A program made the translations under genes and the position numbers. Of a stretch of DNA of 64,000 nt, positions 29,677 through 57,558 are shown piece by piece. This DNA comes from a virus, in the IMG/VR virus record IMGVR_UViG_3300027140_000003, positions 1 through 64,000 of that record, one strand, 5' to 3'. Numbering within the stretch: position 1 is the stretch's first letter; the number at the start of each line of letters is the position of its first letter. A model generated the notes under the pieces. That model had not been told where the DNA came from, did not search any database, and worked only from the letters and a program-made list of their open reading frames with translations.

Positions 29677-29868
29677 TTACCATGTTCCATCATCTATAAT
29701 ACCTCGAATCCAAACTGGACCGAGACTAATAAAAATCCCACGCATTGCAGGATTTAAATCATCTGGATGTAAAAAATCAAAACGCAGTTCCCAATGACAT
29801 GGGTTAACAACTACACCAAACCACATTCCTGAATATCTTGCGTATTTAATTAATGTCTTTAACTGCAT
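29677..29868 (-). CDS. Small hypothetical protein overlapping clpP
   Basis: A 63-residue aromatic-rich protein (MQLKTLIKYAR start, then MWFGVVVNPCHWELRFDF). ATG 29868 gives a 23-base overlap with the ClpP gene end. No family recognised. Could be a Trp-rich membrane-associated peptide. Confidence 0.5.
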   Translation of the reverse strand: MQLKTLIKYARYSGMWFGVVVNPCHWELRFDFLHPDDLNPAMRGIFISLGPVWIRGIIDDGTW

Positions 29869-30394
29869 CACATAACCCCAAATCTTTTGCTTCGGTTGCT
29901 GATAACCACATATCTTGTGGAGGTAAAAGCACTTCACGAATTTTCTTCTCAGATAATCCTGTGCATTTTTTATAATGACTAATCATACGTTTGGTCGTCA
30001 AGTCAAACTCTTTGACTGTTGCGAACAACTCATGTTCTTTGCCGAACGCACCCCATGAATACTGGTGTGACAGAATAGAAGTATTCGGTGTAAGAATACG
30101 ATTTCCCTTTTCGCCAGCAATAAAAATCATAAGACCAGCTGAAGCGATTTGACCAAGACCAATTGTTCTAATTGGAATGGCTGAACCACGCATAGTATCA
30201 ACTGCTGCATTTAAATCTCCGCCTGGAGAAGTGATTACCATGTTAAGTAAGTCAGCACGATCTTCTTGGAAATTGTTTTCAAAGATCCATTCTACTGCTT
30301 GTTTACAAGTTGCTAATGTAACTTCTTCCATTAACAAGAAGAACGAATGACGTGAGTGTTCTTCTTTTACCTGTAAATTCAATTTTTGCATCAT
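29846..30394 (-). CDS. ClpP-like serine protease
   Basis: A 182-residue S14-family peptidase. Catalytic Ser lies in GQIASAGLMIF, His in LSHQYSWG, and the candidate Asp follows in the AKDLGLCD region. The oxyanion strand TSPGGDLNAA is present. Phage ClpP homologues process virion or scaffold proteins or join host ClpX/ClpA. No partner ATPase is seen here. Start at ATG 30394 fits AAAGG spacing better than the upstream GTG. Confidence 0.82.
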   Translation of the reverse strand: MMQKLNLQVKEEHSRHSFFLLMEEVTLATCKQAVEWIFENNFQEDRADLLNMVITSPGGDLNAAVDTMRGSAIPIRTIGLGQIASAGLMIFIAGEKGNRILTPNTSILSHQYSWGAFGKEHELFATVKEFDLTTKRMISHYKKCTGLSEKKIREVLLPPQDMWLSATEAKDLGLCDAVKDIN

Positions 30395-30405
30395 ATTTTG
30401 CACCT

Positions 30406-30933
30406 TTAATCCTTGTAAAAAATGTGTCTACCAATTACTGTAGTCTTCTGTAAATTCTTCCAATTTGGTCGTACATAATCCGCATGATAAAATTTTGCGC
30501 CATATGTATTATCTTCTAGTACCTCATAATTAGCATAAACATATAACGCAACTTCTAAATTTTTGTTATATACTTCTTGATTTATAGATTTTCTTGGCTC
30601 ACAAAACCAAGAAAATTGACAAGCAATTCTTGTGTCGCCGATTGATTCTACCTTAGTTTTTTGTTTAACTACGCTACAAATATCTTTCGGAAACCTTGGA
30701 TCTAATACTCTATTCATCGTTACCATAGCAACAGCGACTTGACCATCTCGGGGTTCATGCCCTGCTTCATAATAAATGTTTTCAGCCAAACAATCAACTT
30801 GTTGTCTAGCGTCAGTGGTTAACTGTCCATACTTAATGTTAAGTATAGTGTATCCTTTACTATAAAATGTAGCAGCAGCTGTTAGTGCTACCATTACTGC
30901 TATCGAAATAAATGTAACTCGGATTAAATTCAT
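30406..30933 (-). CDS. SleB-type cell-wall hydrolase with N-terminal membrane anchor
   Basis: A 175-residue protein. Residues about 5-25 (VTFISIAVMVALTAAATFYS) form a signal anchor. The rest is a Hydrolase_2/SleB-like domain with ENIYYEAGHEPRDGQVAVAM, catalytic Glu, then FSWFCEP. A membrane-tethered lytic transglycosylase-like enzyme probably acting on the host wall at lysis. AAGGAGATTT precedes the ATG. Confidence 0.82.
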   Translation of the reverse strand: MNLIRVTFISIAVMVALTAAATFYSKGYTILNIKYGQLTTDARQQVDCLAENIYYEAGHEPRDGQVAVAMVTMNRVLDPRFPKDICSVVKQKTKVESIGDTRIACQFSWFCEPRKSINQEVYNKNLEVALYVYANYEVLEDNTYGAKFYHADYVRPNWKNLQKTTVIGRHIFYKD

Positions 30934-31536: not shown

Positions 31537-31702
31537 GATAGTTCCTTGTAAAAGTTAATATGATCCACTGCATAATTAATGTCGCCACTTTAGTTAGTAC
31601 AAGAGCCAATTGGGCATCGGTTGCTAACATCGAGCAAAGACTTCACTAATTCGTGGTAGGTTATTCTGTTACGAGGAAACCTACCGAAACCCTAAGCAGT
31701 GT

Positions 31703-31735
31703 TTAGGCTGCTAATGCGAACTGTGCGTCGTTTGC
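31703..31735 (-). other. tmRNA proteolysis tag reading frame
   Basis: Resume GCA then AAC GAC GCA CAG TTC GCA TTA GCA GCC TAA, encoding ANDAQFALAA. It ends in ALAA, the ClpXP recognition end. It is closest in pattern to the betaproteobacterial tag ANDERFALAA. Confidence 0.88.
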
Positions 31736-31819
31736 GTTTACGTTGTTTACTTTTTACGACTCTCTGTGTCGTGCTGTCCACTCTGTTACTTATTGCCCTG
31801 TCGAAACCATGGCACCCCC

Positions 31820-31877
31820 AACTGAACATACTCAGCGTTTCGCTTTGCTACCGATAACTCGGTTCGGAATATGTTCA
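31820..31877 (-). other. Intervening segment of permuted tmRNA precursor
   Basis: Fifty-eight bases joining the tmRNA 3' end to its 5' end. It starts TGAACATA and ends TATGTTCAGTT, giving an 8-bp stem that extends the acceptor helix. An inner GCG-AAA-CGC hairpin is visible. This segment is expected to be cut out to give separate acceptor and coding RNAs. CCA is not encoded (CCT), so the end must be processed and repaired. Confidence 0.75.
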
Positions 31878-31942
31878 GGTGGAGGTGGTGGGAGTCGAAC
31901 CCACGTCCAGAACACCTTTCTCATTGCTTCATACAGCAATTC

Positions 31943-32095
31943 TTACATTACGCCATCTTTTGTTGACTTGATTAGCGTAACTTGTCCGTTCGCACCAATA
32001 ACAACTTTAAACATATCTCCCTCTTTCCATCCTTCAGGAAGTTCTTTCTGTTCAAATATAATTATATTTGGTGCAATCTCAGCATTTAATACCAT
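31943..32095 (-). CDS. Possible 50-residue AbrB-like small protein
   Basis: The ORF ends PEGWKEGDMFKVVIGANGQV plus TLIKS, very like the GWKEGD block of the gene at 37094. That conservation supports a real protein. However the ATG at 32095 lies inside the -10 box of the consensus promoter for the tmRNA, so a transcript from that promoter could not encode its start. It would need read-through from upstream. Function unknown, possibly a small DNA-binding beta protein. Confidence 0.45.
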   Translation of the reverse strand: MVLNAEIAPNIIIFEQKELPEGWKEGDMFKVVIGANGQVTLIKSTKDGVM

Positions 32096-32122
32096 TATAC
32101 CCTGCTTTCTCATTAATGTCAA
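32094..32122 (-). promoter_or_regulatory. Fully consensus sigma70 promoter before tmRNA
   Basis: TTGACA (32122-32117), 17-bp spacer, TATAAT (32099-32094). A perfect host sigma70 promoter about 150 bases upstream of the tmRNA acceptor piece. It suggests strong early or constitutive expression. Confidence 0.8.
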
Positions 32123-32772
32123 ATATTCTTTATTCGTTTATAATCTTGTCGCAACTTTTTAAATTCTCCGATCCAGTCATCTCTCTTCTCTTCAAAGATT
32201 AATGGTTCGTTGTCATCAACACCCATAATAATAACTAACTTACCAACAGGAATTCCTGTTCGTTCTTCGAAAGCAACTGCATAAGCAGATGTTTGCATAA
32301 AGTATCCGTAAATATTATCACGAGTCTTAACTCTTGCAGAAGTTTTAAAGTCAATAACTGCAAGTTTCCCATCATACTCTGCAATACAATCAACTGTTCC
32401 TGCAACTTCCAGATGATCTGAATAAAGCGGATCTTCTAACGCATGTATGTTATTTATCTTGTCTAGATGTGGAATTAACGACCTGTAAACTTCTTGATCG
32501 AATATATCTGGTTCAGCAGACTCTCCACGCAAATAGGATTCGCAGAGGGTGTGAATTCTTGTTCCACGTGTTGCTGCTCGATTTGAGATTCGGTTGGCTT
32601 CTGCTTCTCCGACTTTTTTTCGCCAAGCGATGATTGCTGCTTTTGAGTGCAATCCTGTAACTGTGGTGATGCTTGGATAGGCTCGACCCGATGGCGTTTT
32701 ATATACCCTCGTACCATCGGGTTTTGTGTCACGTTCAAGTTTGGGTAAATCATGATGTATAAAATTTTTCAT
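32119..32772 (-). CDS. RecB/MGME1-like PD-(D/E)XK exonuclease
   Basis: A 217-residue protein with an N-terminal PSITTVTG region, GTRIHTLCESYLRGE, and the catalytic core GTVDCIAEYDGKLAVIDFK (Asp, then D-x-K) with a downstream QTSAYA helix. This is the single-domain RecB-like family found in T4-like phages and mitochondria (MGME1). It probably processes DNA ends in recombination or repair. It abuts the endolysin gene. Confidence 0.8.
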   Translation of the reverse strand: MKNFIHHDLPKLERDTKPDGTRVYKTPSGRAYPSITTVTGLHSKAAIIAWRKKVGEAEANRISNRAATRGTRIHTLCESYLRGESAEPDIFDQEVYRSLIPHLDKINNIHALEDPLYSDHLEVAGTVDCIAEYDGKLAVIDFKTSARVKTRDNIYGYFMQTSAYAVAFEERTGIPVGKLVIIMGVDDNEPLIFEEKRDDWIGEFKKLRQDYKRIKNI

Positions 32773-53573: not shown

Positions 53574-53647
53574 TGGAGCGGAGTGAGAGAATCGAACTCT
53601 CAACCGAAGATTGGAAATCTGCTGTTTTACCATTAAACTAACCCCGC
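53574..53647 (-). tRNA. tRNA-Gly(TCC)
   Basis: Loop TTTCCAA gives anticodon TCC. Acceptor GCGGGGT pairs with ACTCCGC. CCA is encoded. One mismatch in the anticodon stem. Confidence 0.88.
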
Positions 53648-53729
53648 ATTGGGTGCAGGGTTTTCACCTGCTGCTAATCAAACCTTTCGGTGATTAATCT
53701 GCCACCTCTTTATATTCAGTGGACTTTTC
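53648..53729 (-). ncRNA. Structured 82-base spacer between tRNA-Trp and tRNA-Gly
   Basis: It holds AATCACC, GAAA, GGTTTGATT and GCAGG, TGAAAAC, CCTGC hairpins, and GGTG/CACC pairing around them. It looks like a folded RNA or a degenerate tRNA (5-bp stem with 7-base loop). No protein frame. Function unknown. Confidence 0.4.
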
Positions 53730-53803
53730 TGGCATCCCGATAGGGACTCGAACCCCAACCAACAGTTTTGGAGACTGCTATGCTGCCATTACACCATCGA
53801 GAC
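53730..53803 (-). tRNA. tRNA-Trp(CCA)
   Basis: Loop CTCCAAA, anticodon CCA. Acceptor GTCTCGA pairs with TCGGGAT, including G-T pairs. CCA end encoded. Discriminator G. Confidence 0.88.
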
Positions 53804-53806
53804 ATT

Positions 53807-53882
53807 TGGTGCCCACGGAGAGACTCGAACTCCCGACCTCCTGATTACTAATCAGATGCTCTACCAACTGAGCTACGTGGGC
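53807..53882 (-). tRNA. tRNA-Thr(AGT)
   Basis: Loop TTAGTAA gives anticodon AGT for codon ACT. Acceptor GCCCACG/CGTGGGC and both arms are perfect. An A34 anticodon is unusual in bacteria outside tRNA-Arg(ACG). A second Thr tRNA (TGT) is at 54409. Confidence 0.85.
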
Positions 53883-53886
53883 GATT

Positions 53887-53960
53887 TGGTGGAGGATGAG
53901 AGAATCGAACTCTCAATCTCGGCTTGCAAAGCCGATGTTATCCCATTTAACTAATCCCCC
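53887..53960 (-). tRNA. tRNA-Ala(TGC)
   Basis: Loop TTTGCAA, anticodon TGC. Acceptor GGGGGAT/ATCCTCC contains the G3-U70 alanine identity pair. CCA encoded. Confidence 0.9.
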
Positions 53961-53962
53961 AA

Positions 53963-54181
53963 TTATTTTGATCTTGGAGTAGTACAACTATCACTCCAAA
54001 GATCTTGTGCTTGTTTCTTATATTCTTCTAATTCATCAGCCATTTGCATAGTAGCTAATCTTTTTGCTTCTGACTTACTCACAACATCATCTCGTTGAAA
54101 GATTGCATTCCAACGATTATCATATTCATCTTGTGTTACACTAAATGGTCTTGGTTTACTTCCTTTGCCACCATCAGTCAT
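53963..54181 (-). CDS. Small hypothetical protein inside tRNA array
   Basis: A 72-residue hydrophilic protein (SVTQDEYDNRWNAIFQRDD, then MADELEEYKKQAQDLWS). The DEYDNRW pattern is frequent in small T4-like phage proteins. ATGA overlap with the upstream tiny gene supports a real pair. Function unknown. Confidence 0.62.
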   Translation of the reverse strand: MTDGGKGSKPRPFSVTQDEYDNRWNAIFQRDDVVSKSEAKRLATMQMADELEEYKKQAQDLWSDSCTTPRSK

Positions 54182-54306
54182 CTTCCTTGTCCCCTATATT
54201 TCTTGTGAGTCTTTTTAGATTTATTTAAGGTGCTTGTTTTACTTCCATTCTGGGAAGTTTTCTTAACAACTCTTTGATGCTTACTAACACTGCCTTTACC
54301 TGCCAT
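54178..54306 (-). CDS. Tiny basic protein
   Basis: A 42-residue basic protein (MAGKGSVSKHQRVVKKTSQN, ending KKYRGQGR). The YRGQG ending recurs in small phage proteins next to a DEYDNRW partner. AAAGGAGATAAC precedes the ATG. Function unknown. Confidence 0.58.
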   Translation of the reverse strand: MAGKGSVSKHQRVVKKTSQNGSKTSTLNKSKKTHKKYRGQGR

Positions 54307-54325
54307 GTTATCTCCTTTTATATAT

Positions 54326-54400
54326 TGGCTCCGAAGGGTGGGATCGAACCACCGACCAATTGATTAACAGTCAACTGCACTACCGCTGTGCTACTTCGGA
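54326..54400 (-). tRNA. tRNA-Asn(GTT)
   Basis: Loop CTGTTAA, anticodon GTT. Acceptor TCCGAAG/CTTCGGA. CCA encoded. Confidence 0.9.
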
Positions 54401-54408
54401 ATAAACTT

Positions 54409-54482
54409 TGGTGCCCCATGAGAGAATCGAACTCCCGTCCTCGGATTACAAAACCGATGTTCTACCATTTAACTAATAGGGC
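54409..54482 (-). tRNA. tRNA-Thr(TGT)
   Basis: Loop TTTGTAA, anticodon TGT. Acceptor GCCCTAT/ATGGGGC with one T-G pair. CCA encoded. Confidence 0.9.
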
Positions 54483-54492
54483 TATTATATAT

Positions 54493-54570
<78 letters not shown>

Positions 54571-54576
54571 TAAAAC

Positions 54577-54651
54577 TGGTGGTGATGGTTGGATTCGAGC
54601 CAACGACCTACTGCGTATGAAGCAGTTGCACTACCACTGTGCTACATCACC
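54577..54651 (-). tRNA. tRNA-Met(CAT), elongator-like
   Basis: Loop TTCATAC, anticodon CAT. Acceptor GGTGATG/CATCACC fully paired, so not initiator-like. CCA encoded. One of three CAT tRNAs. Confidence 0.8.
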
Positions 54652-54657
54652 GAAATT

Positions 54658-54740
54658 TGGTGCCCCAAGCGAGACTCGAACTCGCACACCGAAGTACTGG
54701 CTTCTAAGACCAGCGTGTCTACCAATTCCACCATCGGGGC
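54658..54740 (-). tRNA. tRNA-Leu(TAG)
   Basis: Loop CTTAGAA, anticodon TAG. Long variable arm and acceptor GCCCCGA/TTGGGGC. CCA encoded. Its 5' end is 4 bases from the stem of the structured RNA at 54744. Confidence 0.9.
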
Positions 54741-55106
54741 TAACATTGTTGAAAGTACTGTTGTATGTTTAAGAGTCGGATAATAAAGACTCTCCTAATC
54801 GCATCGTTCACGTAGCGTCAGCAAGCTACTATTTCCTAGATATCGGGCTGACTTGATTAGGATGGTGATCTTCCATAACAGTTTGGATTGCTTATTCTTT
54901 CGCACACACTTTCAACAATGCCCTCTGTCCCTACACAGAGAACCTTGTGTCTTGCTAATGTTGGACGACGATCCTCAGGTCTTGACATCCGTATGCGAAG
55001 TCCACCATCACTCGCATATTTTTAATGATGGGACTTACACCCACCTCGCAGAAGTGTGGATAACAGAATAGGGATTATCTGTCATAGCCATTGCGGGACT
55101 AATTTC
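54741..55106 (-). ncRNA. Unidentified structured RNA 1 in tRNA array
   Basis: A 366-base segment without a gene, flush between two tRNAs. A perfect 13-bp stem (54744-54756 with 54908-54920) closes domain A, which holds GAGTC/GACTC, CCTAATC/GATTAGG and ACTGT/ACAGT stems. Hairpin loop GTCAGC (54817) pairs with GCTGAC (54847) as a pseudoknot. Domain B has CCATCA/TGATGG plus AAGTC/GACTT, whose loop pairs with TATGCGA (54992) as TCGCATA (55012), a second pseudoknot. Matches no RNA family I know. Strand is inferred from the tRNAs. Confidence 0.65.
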
Positions 55107-55180
55107 TGGTTGCGGATGATGGACTCGAACCACCAACTGCAGCGTATGAGACTGCTGAGATACCTTTTCTCTAATCCGCT
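55107..55180 (-). tRNA. tRNA(CAT), initiator-like acceptor end
   Basis: Loop CTCATAC, anticodon CAT. The end reads CGCAACCA and position 1 (A) faces A72, an unpaired 1-72 as in initiator tRNA. The three G-C pairs of the classical initiator anticodon stem are absent. Assigned to Met, possibly initiator. Confidence 0.75.
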
Positions 55181-55181
55181 A

Positions 55182-55541
55182 TTAACCTGCATTTCTCGTA
55201 ATAAAATTCATTCGCATCTTACGAGAATCAAAAAACTTTTCTACTACACGTTTGACCACACTTGGATCAAACTCTTTACAACTAAACACATCTAGGTATA
55301 TATGTCTATCGTGATCAATAAAATGTCCAGTGATAGATGATGTAGTAATCAACTGCATCAAACTATACCCTTCTTTATCAGGATCTCCTGGACAAAGAAA
55401 TTCAATAATTGGCTCACCATGAGCAACCATATCAATTTCCTTCACCAATGTCTTGACAAAATTATAAATGTTTTGCTTATCTTTGATCGAATCAACATCA
55501 CATTCAGAACAATCAAGCATTAAGTGATAACCCCAATACAT
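55182..55541 (-). CDS. speD: S-adenosylmethionine decarboxylase-like protein
   Basis: A 119-residue protein. YWGYHLMLDCSECD and SSITGHFIDHDRHIYLDVFS recall the short bacterial and phage SpeD, a self-processing pyruvoyl enzyme of polyamine synthesis. The usual ESH-type processing triad is not clear (TTSSITGHF here), so activity needs caution. AAAGGAAAAT precedes the ATG. It sits inside the tRNA array. Confidence 0.68.
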   Translation of the reverse strand: MYWGYHLMLDCSECDVDSIKDKQNIYNFVKTLVKEIDMVAHGEPIIEFLCPGDPDKEGYSLMQLITTSSITGHFIDHDRHIYLDVFSCKEFDPSVVKRVVEKFFDSRKMRMNFITRNAG

Positions 55542-55559
55542 ATTTTCCTTTCACTAACT

Positions 55560-55634
55560 TGGCGACTCGTGGGAGAATCGAACTCCCATGATCGGATAGA
55601 CAATCCGACGTAATGACCATTATACGAACGAGCC
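55560..55634 (-). tRNA. tRNA-Asp(GTC)
   Basis: Loop TTGTCTA, anticodon GTC. Acceptor GGCTCGT/ACGAGTC. CCA encoded. Confidence 0.9.
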
Positions 55635-55642
55635 AAATAATT

Positions 55643-55730
55643 TGGTGGGTGCTCTCCGATTCGAACAGAGAAGGCACTAAGACAAGAGATTTACAGTCTC
55701 CCCCCGATACCATTACGGGACTAAGCACCC
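55643..55730 (-). tRNA. tRNA-Tyr(GTA)
   Basis: Loop CTGTAAA, anticodon GTA. Long variable arm as expected for bacterial Tyr. Acceptor GGGTGCT/AGCACCC. CCA encoded. Its 5' end is 4 bases from the stem of structured RNA 2. Confidence 0.9.
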
Positions 55731-56086
55731 ATGATATTAGTTTTGCTGACGCACTATTTGCTATGCTCAACGGAATTAGCTGCAGCATTTACCGTTTATG
55801 TACATAGTTACTCAGGCATGATCAAGCCCATGGCTTACATCAGCAAAACTAATACCACATTTAATTGCACTGGGATGTTTGGCAACAACTACCACTCGGT
55901 AGCTAACCACGTCATCGTCTGACGATTGGTTCCCATCCACATTACGTTCCAACTAACTCCAGCGTGACCACCGTATCCGTCCATAGACTTCGTTTCCATC
56001 TTTCCTGATACATGACGCACCCATCTCCGTCGAGACAGCCAATGCTCATGCATCCTACTGGTTTGGTAACCCAATGCAATTAAATC
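55731..56086 (-). ncRNA. Unidentified structured RNA 2 in tRNA array
   Basis: A 356-base segment exactly between tRNA-Tyr and tRNA-Glu. A perfect 15-bp stem (55735-55749 with 55840-55854) closes domain A of 120 bases, containing CTATG/CATAG and AACGG/CCGTT. A perfect 11-bp stem (55859-55869 with 56075-56085) closes domain B of 227 bases. Two long perfect stems with unrelated sequence cannot be chance. It is analogous in size and layout to RNA 1 but shares no clear sequence. Processing of the flanking tRNAs would release it. Confidence 0.68.
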
Positions 56087-56161
56087 TGGTACACGATAGG
56101 AGAATCGAACTCCTCTTCCTGCCGTGAAAGGGCAGTGTCCTAACCGATAGACGAATCGTGC
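56087..56161 (-). tRNA. tRNA-Glu(TTC)
   Basis: Loop CTTTCAC, anticodon TTC. Acceptor GCACGAT/ATCGTGT. CCA encoded. First tRNA downstream of the internal promoter at 56209-56181. Confidence 0.9.
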
Positions 56162-56180
56162 ATTTCAATCAAGAACATTA

Positions 56181-56209
56181 ATTATACATGATACTTGAAT
56201 TAAAGTAAA
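56181..56209 (-). promoter_or_regulatory. Early promoter inside tRNA array
   Basis: TTTACT (56209-56204), spacer starting TTAATTCA, TATAAT (56186-56181). It would transcribe tRNA-Glu, structured RNA 2, SpeD, structured RNA 1 and the rest down to tRNA-Gly. Confidence 0.78.
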
Positions 56210-56231
56210 GCAATATTTTATTGCAACATCT

Positions 56232-56308
56232 TGGAGTGAGTGACAGGACTCGAACCTGCATGAAACGGATTTGCAATCCGTCGCCTAACCATTCAGCAGC
56301 ACACTCAC
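56232..56308 (-). tRNA. tRNA-Cys(GCA)
   Basis: Loop TTGCAAA, anticodon GCA. Acceptor GTGAGTG/CACTCAC. CCA encoded. D-stem is weak. Confidence 0.85.
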
Positions 56309-56314
56309 ATATTC

Positions 56315-56393
56315 TGGTACCCCTGCTCAGATTCGAACTGAGAACAACTTCTCCTTTTGAGAGAGACGACTTTACCAATTTGTCCACAAGGGC
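56315..56393 (-). tRNA. tRNA-Leu(CAA), atypical short variable region
   Basis: Loop CTCAAAA gives anticodon CAA. Acceptor GCCCTTG/CAGGGGT. The variable region is only about 7 bases, too short for a normal class II Leu tRNA. It may be a divergent or nonstandard tRNA. Confidence 0.68.
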
Positions 56394-56395
56394 AT

Positions 56396-56470
56396 TGGTG
56401 GGCTGAGAGAGAATTGAACTCTCACTCAATCGATTATGAGTCGACTGCTTTACCATTAAGCTATCAGCCC
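56396..56470 (-). tRNA. tRNA-Ile2(CAT), lysidine type
   Basis: Loop CTCATAA with stem sequence GTCGACTCATAATCGAT, very similar to the E. coli Ile2 anticodon arm. CAT would be changed to a lysidine anticodon reading ATA. Acceptor GGGCTGA/TCAGCCC. Confidence 0.75.
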
Positions 56471-56476
56471 AACAAC

Positions 56477-56551
56477 TGGCACCCCCACGAGGAATCGAAC
56501 CTCGATTCGCAGTTTAGAAGACTGCTGCATTATCCATTATACTATGGGGAT
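56477..56551 (-). tRNA. tRNA-Arg(TCT)
   Basis: Loop CTTCTAA, anticodon TCT. Acceptor ATCCCCA/TGGGGGT. CCA encoded. Confidence 0.9.
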
Positions 56552-56556
56552 AAACT

Positions 56557-56639
56557 TGGTGCGAATGGTCGGACTCGAACCGACAAGCCGAAGCGGGAGA
56601 TTTTAAGTCTCCTGTGTTTACCAATTTCACCACACTCGC
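56557..56639 (-). tRNA. tRNA-Leu(TAA)
   Basis: Loop CTTAAAA, anticodon TAA. Long variable arm. Acceptor GCGAGTG pairs with CATTCGC. CCA encoded. Confidence 0.88.
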
Positions 56640-56647
56640 AAAAACTT

Positions 56648-56737
56648 TGGCGGAAGATGTGAGAGTCGAACTCACTCAGCTGCTTTCACAACTGTACGGA
56701 TTAGCAATCCGCTGCATTACCATCCTGCCCATCTTCC
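56648..56737 (-). tRNA. tRNA-Ser(GCT)
   Basis: Loop TTGCTAA, anticodon GCT. Long variable arm. Acceptor GGAAGAT/ATCTTCC. CCA encoded. Confidence 0.9.
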
Positions 56738-56744
56738 AAAACTT

Positions 56745-56820
56745 TGGCACCCAATGAAGGAATCGAACCTCCACTTCTGCGTTCGTAGCACAGCGTGATC
56801 ATCCATTTCACCAATCGGGT
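56745..56820 (-). tRNA. tRNA-Arg(ACG)
   Basis: Loop CTACGAA, anticodon ACG, the usual A34 tRNA edited to inosine by host TadA. Acceptor ACCCGAT/ATTGGGT. CCA encoded. Confidence 0.88.
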
Positions 56821-56825
56821 AAATT

Positions 56826-56915
56826 TGGCGGAAGCGGTGAGATTCGAACTCACGGACCATTTCTGATCGTCTGTTTTCAAGACAGGTGCAATAAACCAGA
56901 CTCTGCCACACTTCC
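56826..56915 (-). tRNA. tRNA-Ser(TGA)
   Basis: Loop CTTGAAA, anticodon TGA. Long variable arm. Acceptor GGAAGTG/CGCTTCC with one pair changed. CCA encoded. Confidence 0.88.
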
Positions 56916-56920
56916 ATATT

Positions 56921-56996
56921 TGGTGGGACGTGAGAGACTCGAACTCCCGACAGCCTGCGTGTAAGGCAGGAACTCTACCAACTGAGTTAACGTCCC
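56921..56996 (-). tRNA. tRNA-Val(TAC)
   Basis: Loop CTTACAC, anticodon TAC. Acceptor GGGACGT/ACGTCCC. CCA encoded. Confidence 0.9.
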
Positions 56997-57004
56997 ATAA
57001 TAAC

Positions 57005-57079
57005 TGGAGCAGGATATCGGGTTCGAACCGATGACATTTTCGTTGGCAACGAAACATTCTACCACTGAATTAATCCTGC
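57005..57079 (-). tRNA. tRNA-Gly(GCC)
   Basis: Loop TTGCCAA, anticodon GCC. Acceptor GCAGGAT/ATCCTGC. CCA encoded. Confidence 0.9.
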
Positions 57080-57086
57080 ATAAACT

Positions 57087-57161
57087 TGGTACCCGATAGT
57101 GGTAACGATCCACTCACCTATCGCTTATCAAGCGATTGCTCTACCACTGAGCTAATCGGGT
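57087..57161 (-). tRNA. tRNA-Ile(GAT)
   Basis: Loop TTGATAA, anticodon GAT. Acceptor ACCCGAT/ATCGGGT. The T loop reads ATCGTTA rather than TTCRANT, an atypical TPsiC loop. CCA encoded. Confidence 0.8.
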
Positions 57162-57162
57162 A

Positions 57163-57238
57163 TGGTGCTGCCTAGTAGAATCGAACTACTTTCCGAGGTT
57201 CTTCAGACCCCTGCTATGACCACATCAGCTAAAGCAGC
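57163..57238 (-). tRNA. tRNA-Phe(GAA)
   Basis: Loop CTGAAGA, anticodon GAA. Acceptor GCTGCTT/AGGCAGC. CCA encoded. Confidence 0.88.
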
Positions 57239-57240
57239 AT

Positions 57241-57316
57241 TGGGGTGTTTAATGAGGATTGAACTCATACTATCTCGGTCACAGCGAGATGTGCAGACCA
57301 CTACACTATAAACACC
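57241..57316 (-). tRNA. tRNA-His(GTG) with encoded G-1
   Basis: Loop CTGTGAC, anticodon GTG. Acceptor GTGTTTA/TAAACAC with an extra G before it facing C73, the histidine identity pair. CCA encoded. Confidence 0.9.
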
Positions 57317-57326
57317 ATAGTAACTT

Positions 57327-57400
57327 TGGTAGGAGCACAGAGAATTGAACTCTGATTTGCTGGTTAAAAGCCAGCTACTTTACCATTAAGTTATACTCCC
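57327..57400 (-). tRNA. tRNA-Lys(TTT)
   Basis: Loop CTTTTAA, anticodon TTT. Acceptor GGGAGTA/TGCTCCT. CCA encoded. Confidence 0.88.
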
Positions 57401-57484
57401 ATATTAAAACACACTACATCCAGTCCACGGACACTCTTGCGAATGCGACTCATACTTACAGACCCACTGCAATATGTTTTAATA
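57401..57484 (-). ncRNA. Unidentified small structured RNA 3
   Basis: An 84-base segment between tRNA-Gln and tRNA-Lys. ATATTAAAACA (57401-57411) pairs perfectly with TGTTTTAATAT (57475-57485), the last base being the A of the tRNA-Gln CCA. GTCC/GGAC and TTGCGA-type pairings lie inside. Same punctuation logic as RNAs 1 and 2. Confidence 0.5.
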
Positions 57485-57558
57485 TGGCACCCGAAATAAG
57501 AATCGAACTTATACTAACAGAGTCAAAGTCTGCTGTGCTACCACTACACCATTCGGGA
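57485..57558 (-). tRNA. tRNA-Gln(TTG)
   Basis: Loop CTTTGAC, anticodon TTG. Acceptor TCCCGAA/TTCGGGT with T1-T72 unpaired; weak 1-72 pairing is normal for Gln. First tRNA of the array in transcription order. Confidence 0.85.

Follow-up and report, generated by a model that had tools for sequence, protein, structure and literature searches.

Among 18,146 genomes surveyed previously, 402 phages (about 2.3%) bore a tmRNA, and ARAGORN assigned 53 of the 133 unique phage tmRNA structures to the two-piece type, 50 of these 53 coming from aquatic samples (PMC9004378). Two-piece tmRNAs were described in the T4-like phages Melnitz and Mosig, where they are accompanied by glutamine riboswitches (PMC9004378). 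Mycobacteriophage DS6A also encodes a tmRNA-type RNA, which is reported to be defective, devoid of a tag frame and inhibitory to the host tmRNA (cited in PMC11915505). In the same source, which deals with roughly 12,000 bacterial permuted tmRNAs, one tRNA-Ala and one repeat have been reported inside the intervening segments of permuted tmRNA genes (PMC11915505); no protein gene in this position was found in the literature, of which the open-licence papers were covered in full text.

The window, i.e. the whole stretch of DNA analysed here, comprises 64 kb of a 101,863-base IMG/VR virus record, that of an aquatic phage. It encodes a gp32-like SSB (Pfam gp32), and its baseplate wedge, hub-lysozyme and tail-tube-cap proteins are of the T4 type, which supports its assignment to a T4-like phage. 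Megablast searches returned no close DNA relatives among named phages, the best matches being short gp32 stretches of Synechococcus phages with ~77-88% identity. ARAGORN placed a cluster of 27 tRNA genes, which together serve most amino acids, at 53574-57558 on the minus strand.

Identification of a permuted tmRNA gene

The whole window was searched with Rfam cmscan, with only the best among overlapping clan members listed. The beta_tmRNA model RF01850 matched over its full length at 31989-31631 on the minus strand (129.3 bits, E 4.3e-39, threshold 84 bits) and was the top scorer in the clan of tmRNA models, which places the RNA in the betaproteobacterial subtype. The tmRNA_permuted model RF04321 matched at 31938-31703 on the same strand (127 bits, E 1.8e-24, gathering threshold 47 bits), likewise in full (positions 1-213 of 213). 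Independently, ARAGORN called a permuted gene (tmRNA*) at 31612-31969 (minus strand) with the tag ANDAQFALAA*, and the permuted signature CACCTCCACCT-N(40-70)-GGGGGTG occurred once in the window and in none of 100 shuffles. The parts of the gene are as follows.

31612..31989, minus strand: outermost extent of the permuted tmRNA gene (ARAGORN 31612-31969 combined with RF01850 31631-31989)
31703..31938, minus strand: conserved tmRNA core, from the tRNA-like domain to the tag stop (RF04321, 127 bits)
31888..31904, minus strand: T-arm GTGGG-TTCGACT-CCCAC (sequence; T-stem covariation in 87 relatives)
31881..31887, minus strand: 3' strand of the acceptor stem, CACCTCC, with U70 at 31883 (sequence, relatives, signature scan)
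31878..31880, minus strand: discriminator A and encoded CC, followed by T at 31877; terminal A not encoded (sequence)
31820..31877, minus strand: intervening segment of 58 nt, one hairpin (-20.5 kcal/mol), predicted to be removed; terminal stem conserved in 87 relatives
31820/31819, minus strand: predicted RNase P site
31813..31819, minus strand: 5' strand of the acceptor stem, GGGGGTG, with G1 at 31819 and G3 at 31817 (sequence, relatives, signature scan)
31703..31735, minus strand: tag reading frame ANDAQFALAA plus stop (ARAGORN; translation)

On the transcribed strand, the T-arm is followed by CACCTCC, ACC, the 58-nt segment, GGGGGTG, the mRNA-like part and the tag. The acceptor part thus precedes the coding part, a single hairpin joins the two, G3 lies opposite U70, and the tag frame translates as ANDAQFALAA, all as proposed in the preliminary description, whose reading of the locus as a phage-encoded, circularly permuted two-piece-type tmRNA is borne out by the two Rfam models and ARAGORN. 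The tag ends in a Clp-type degron (..ALAA). The refuting outcome named in that description, a lack of matches to permuted tmRNA models, did not occur. Its span of 31640-31942 identified the right locus with limits that were too narrow, the gene being somewhat longer. It had also regarded such a gene as striking in a T4-like phage: the phage is indeed T4-like, but the two-piece phage tmRNAs reported earlier (PMC9004378) make the novelty of the gene modest. Because the encoded tail reads ACC followed by T, the terminal A of the CCA end must be acquired after processing.

The betaproteobacterial permuted tmRNAs (Rfam RF01850 / RF04321) share the permuted order, G3-U70, the T-arm, an AND...ALAA tag and an inter-piece hairpin with the window gene, whereas the latter is phage-encoded, carries ACC+T instead of an encoded CCA and resides in a phage in which no SmpB was found. 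It further differs from the RNA reported for DS6A (cited in PMC11915505) in having a complete tag frame. In pelagiphage Mosig, a permuted tmRNA directly follows a PD-(D/E)XK nuclease and precedes gp32, as in the window, but it is of the alpha type with the tag GEDNFALAA, whereas that of the window is of the beta type. Moreover, no ClpP is present within 12 kb around the Mosig tmRNA, while the window has a ClpP neighbour, and the glutamine riboswitch that accompanies the Mosig and Melnitz tmRNAs (PMC9004378) was not detected in the window with Rfam cmscan. A manA RNA motif (RF01745) was noted near gp32 in Mosig (L090:9380-9587).

Synechococcus phage BUCT-ZZ01 (ON615601), whose host is Synechococcus elongatus, also carries a permuted tmRNA with beta_tmRNA as its best clan match (94.5 bits), and among isolated phages it encodes the nearest ClpP relative (49.7%). 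In contrast to the arrangement in the window, this tmRNA lies in a tRNA cluster and the ClpP gene in a PhoH gene block 41 kb away, and its tag is ANDETFSMALAA instead of ANDAQFALAA. The BUCT-ZZ01 tmRNA (L088, ON615601.1 116952-117248) is unannotated in the record; a tRNA with a CTA anticodon is found close to it (L088:3817-3892).

Conservation across relatives

Relatives were gathered by means of non-tmRNA anchors, namely the downstream ClpP and the upstream nuclease, after which loci from pattern scans were added. The 160 loci parsed contained 89 distinct intervening segments, and the 87 with credible tags were analysed. Since the parser demanded seven acceptor pairs (G-U allowed), the set is biased towards pairing in this stem, but nothing in the parse forced G3-U70 to stay constant. 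Among the ClpP-anchored, nuclease-anchored and pattern-scan loci, L069 was the only one of the permuted tmRNAs with plausible tags that could not be parsed.

In the 87 distinct viral relatives, acceptor pairs 1-72, 2-71 and 7-66 were invariant, as was the alanine determinant G3-U70 (87/87). The remaining pairs varied in an always compensated manner (4-69 as GC or CG; 5-68 as GC, AT, CG or TA; 6-67 as TA, CG, AT or GC), and compensated changes were likewise seen in the T-stem. This covariation of the acceptor and T stems around a constant G3-U70 indicates that the RNA is under selection. The terminal stem of the intervening segment was also retained while its sequence differed (mean of 11 bp vs 4.7 after shuffling). 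ACCA was encoded in 82 of the 87 relatives; all tags ended in AA and nearly all followed the form AND...ALAA, with variable residues 4-6. Permuted tmRNAs with longer, unusual tags ending in ..RLAA rather than ..ALAA were observed in L042, L069, L098, L157 and L168 (ANDAFFGEVRLAA, ANDAFYFEDLRLAA, ANDSAYYQDLRLAA, ANDDYFTQDLRLAA and ANDAFYGEDRLAA). Calls with odd tags, non-permuted in L205, L214, L236 and L240 and also obtained in L199 and L208, were left out as likely false positives of ARAGORN. Genome-contig scans for bacterial relatives yielded 0 matches to the exact permuted signature and 0 to the ANDAQFALAA tag frame.

These data also bear on the origin of the gene. Its betaproteobacterial type, together with the frequent use of ssrA as an integration site by phages and mobile elements (PMC9004378, on Melnitz), would be in keeping with a transferred host ssrA copy that has been retained but has no independent function. 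However, short-lived passengers would decay, whereas the gene is complete and shows compensated stem changes and an invariant G3-U70 in the 87 distinct relatives; in addition, it occupies a fixed slot, and no integrase was seen adjacent to it. Judged from these sequence comparisons, a passenger origin appears largely refuted by the conservation and is very improbable. Bacterial contamination or a chimeric assembly, conceivable for a window derived from a metagenomic virus record, found no support and has a negligible probability, given that several other assemblies (L003-L008, L010, L011, L083-L085 and L087) carry an almost identical tmRNA gene in a matching phage context, flanked by same-strand phage genes, and that the slot is shared by Mosig, an isolated phage. 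The window locus is very probably a functional permuted-type ssrA gene that belongs to the phage and acts through the processing and ribosome-rescue route proposed below.

Genomic neighbourhood and the adjacent ClpP gene

The genes and signals surrounding the tmRNA gene are listed below.

32119..32772, minus strand: PD-(D/E)XK exonuclease (phrog_298), upstream of the tmRNA; conserved in the lineage and in Mosig
32094..32122, minus strand: sigma-70-type promoter TTGACA-17-TATAAT upstream of the tmRNA (a consensus match only, 12/12)
31943..32095, minus strand: 50-codon ORF whose 3' end overlaps the 5' region of the tmRNA gene
30406..30933, minus strand: SleB-type cell-wall hydrolase (Pfam Hydrolase_2), conserved neighbour
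29846..30403, minus strand: ClpP-like serine protease (Pfam, catalytic residues), conserved neighbour

The promoter candidate was the sole perfect one within 5 kb, and sigma-70-type promoters were enriched among the relatives (17 with at least 10/12 matches vs ~5 expected). No credible family match to the 50-codon ORF was obtained in Pfam or PHROGs; as its ATG overlaps the -10 box, it may lack translation from this start.

The arrangement was assessed in 59 nuclease-anchored loci that extend 4 kb or more downstream, near-identical contigs included. A permuted tmRNA was present in 50 of them and a ClpP match in 49, four of the latter being weak (26-40% identity), and the order in the slot was exonuclease, tmRNA, SleB-like hydrolase, ClpP and gp32. 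The tmRNA is therefore a near-core gene at a fixed slot in this T4-like lineage. It is not indispensable, since eight of the 59 slots contained ClpP without an ARAGORN-detectable tmRNA and one contained neither gene.

The window ClpP matched PF00574 with 94.5 bits (threshold 20.2), and alignment with solved ClpP placed the Ser in GQIASAG, the His in ILSHQ and, through QDMW opposite RDFW, an Asp at the expected position. A role of this protein as head protease was considered and is unlikely; a separate S77 head protease was found in 7 of 12 records, which makes it improbable that capsid maturation depends on ClpP. Its proximity to the tmRNA raises the alternative that both form one tag-and-degrade unit, in which the phage tmRNA would reprogram or compete with host trans-translation by replacing the host tmRNA and its tag, and stalled peptides would be steered to the adjacent phage protease. 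In line with such a unit, ARAGORN detected a tmRNA in 43 of the 45 ClpP-anchored loci with more than 4 kb of upstream sequence (and Rfam one in L020 as well), most ClpP-anchored loci have ClpP on the tmRNA strand, ~1.0-2.5 kb further downstream (~1.2 kb in many relatives), and its catalytic Ser and His match real ClpP. By contrast, in the nuclease-anchored loci each gene also occurred without the other, and their co-occurrence (41 loci) equalled that expected from the separate frequencies (41.5), which demoted the unit to a rival explanation. The two genes are, moreover, 41 kb apart in BUCT-ZZ01, and no phage ClpX was found. The linkage in ClpP-anchored loci is very strong, but no additional association was detected in the nuclease-anchored loci beyond shared synteny, and we regard a functional tmRNA-ClpP unit as unlikely; ClpP is best described as a syntenic neighbour rather than an established partner of the tmRNA.

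Proposed processing and function

For the preferred reading, a phage tmRNA that rescues ribosomes with the help of host factors, the following route is proposed by analogy with bacterial two-piece tmRNAs. The precursor would be transcribed by host RNA polymerase and cut by RNase P before G1 (31819), while the acceptor piece would be trimmed by 3' processing and receive its missing A from the host CCA enzyme. The two pieces would be held together by the acceptor stem, and the RNA would be charged by host AlaRS via G3-U70. Host SmpB would then take it to ribosomes that have stalled on truncated messages, where addition of ANDAQFALAA would lead to degradation by host or phage Clp proteases with host ClpX. 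No SmpB was identified in the phage record or in any of 11 relatives and no ClpX zinc finger in ten records, several of the records searched being 126-222 kb in size, which implies that host proteins are needed; SmpB is expected from the host and is not a defining feature of a tmRNA itself. A host tmRNA is presumably present as well, which might make that of the phage redundant. The likely benefit to the phage would be that ribosomes are kept circulating while messages are degraded during infection.

The intervening segment as a possible slot for small genes

The 58-nt segment of the window contains no ORF and would represent an empty, hairpin-only form. The survey of this position covered phage permuted tmRNAs, and frequencies were determined in a tmRNA-blind set of ClpP- or nuclease-anchored loci, among whose distinct intervening segments 43 measured 70 nt or more. 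Eleven of these 43 contained a Shine-Dalgarno-led ORF open to the segment end, whereas 500 dinucleotide shuffles averaged 0.40 such cases and never exceeded 4. A Shine-Dalgarno sequence and an open ATG frame went together (11, 3 / 1, 28; Fisher p 7e-7, a value that is optimistic for related sequences). The ORFs start 11-15 nt after ACC; in about half, the stop codon ends one base short of G1 (L144, L040, L135, L022, L107, L108 and L152), and the others continue a few codons into the coding piece. Examples are listed below.

L144:10424-10615: Shine-Dalgarno-led segment ORF
L040:2166-2327: Shine-Dalgarno-led segment ORF
L135:8969-9124: Shine-Dalgarno-led segment ORF
L022:4052-4174: Shine-Dalgarno-led segment ORF
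L172:1897-2040: further Shine-Dalgarno-led segment ORF
L210:1960-2178: further Shine-Dalgarno-led segment ORF
L206, L247, L108, L152 and others: further Shine-Dalgarno-led segment ORFs

The predicted proteins (64, 54, 52, 41, 25, 23 and 22 aa, among others) are mostly unrelated to each other, and several resemble single membrane helices. Nine of them gave no credible Pfam or PHROGs match, and one that was searched against isolated phages gave no match. The family MF[DE]xWHWVYLWG.. comprises 13 distinct sequences, most of them taken from pattern-selected loci; its pairwise differences at the three codon positions (279/137/418) followed a coding pattern, and pS exceeded pN in every pair of five small segment-ORF families. 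Members of the MF[DE]xWHWVYLWG.. family also occur directly upstream of the tmRNA, outside the segment, in L163, L164 and L166, as do those of the L033 segment-ORF family upstream of the tmRNA in L055, L121 and L130. Segments with such ORFs were found in both beta-type (L144, L108, L247) and alpha-type tmRNAs (L172, L210). In L066, ARAGORN placed a tRNA-Arg with the anticodon ccg at 2617-2690, within the intervening segment; since the Rfam tRNA model did not list it, the call may be spurious or degenerate.

The terminal stem is retained in segments of the ORF type (11.2 bp vs 5.0 after shuffling) and buries the Shine-Dalgarno sequence in nearly all of them. This location suggests that translation would require unfolding or processing of the precursor, so that either precursor processing or translation may control the small protein, and the production of RNA and protein from one transcript may be coupled. 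Taken together, we consider it reasonably likely that the excised segment of this phage tmRNA group serves as a gene slot that holds different, unrelated small protein genes in the relatives.

Implications

The window gene belongs to a known kind, and the proposed gene slot in the segments of its relatives is the part worth following. Previously viewed as an occasional feature (PMC9004378), the tmRNA is here a near-core gene with a fixed position across a broad T4-like group; the gain that a phage draws from its own ribosome rescue thereby becomes a testable question. The presence of beta- and alpha-type tmRNAs at the same slot in related phages makes the exchange of tmRNA types between host and phage traceable. 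If the segment ORFs are translated, permuted RNA genes can bear protein genes in a part that was thought to be discarded.
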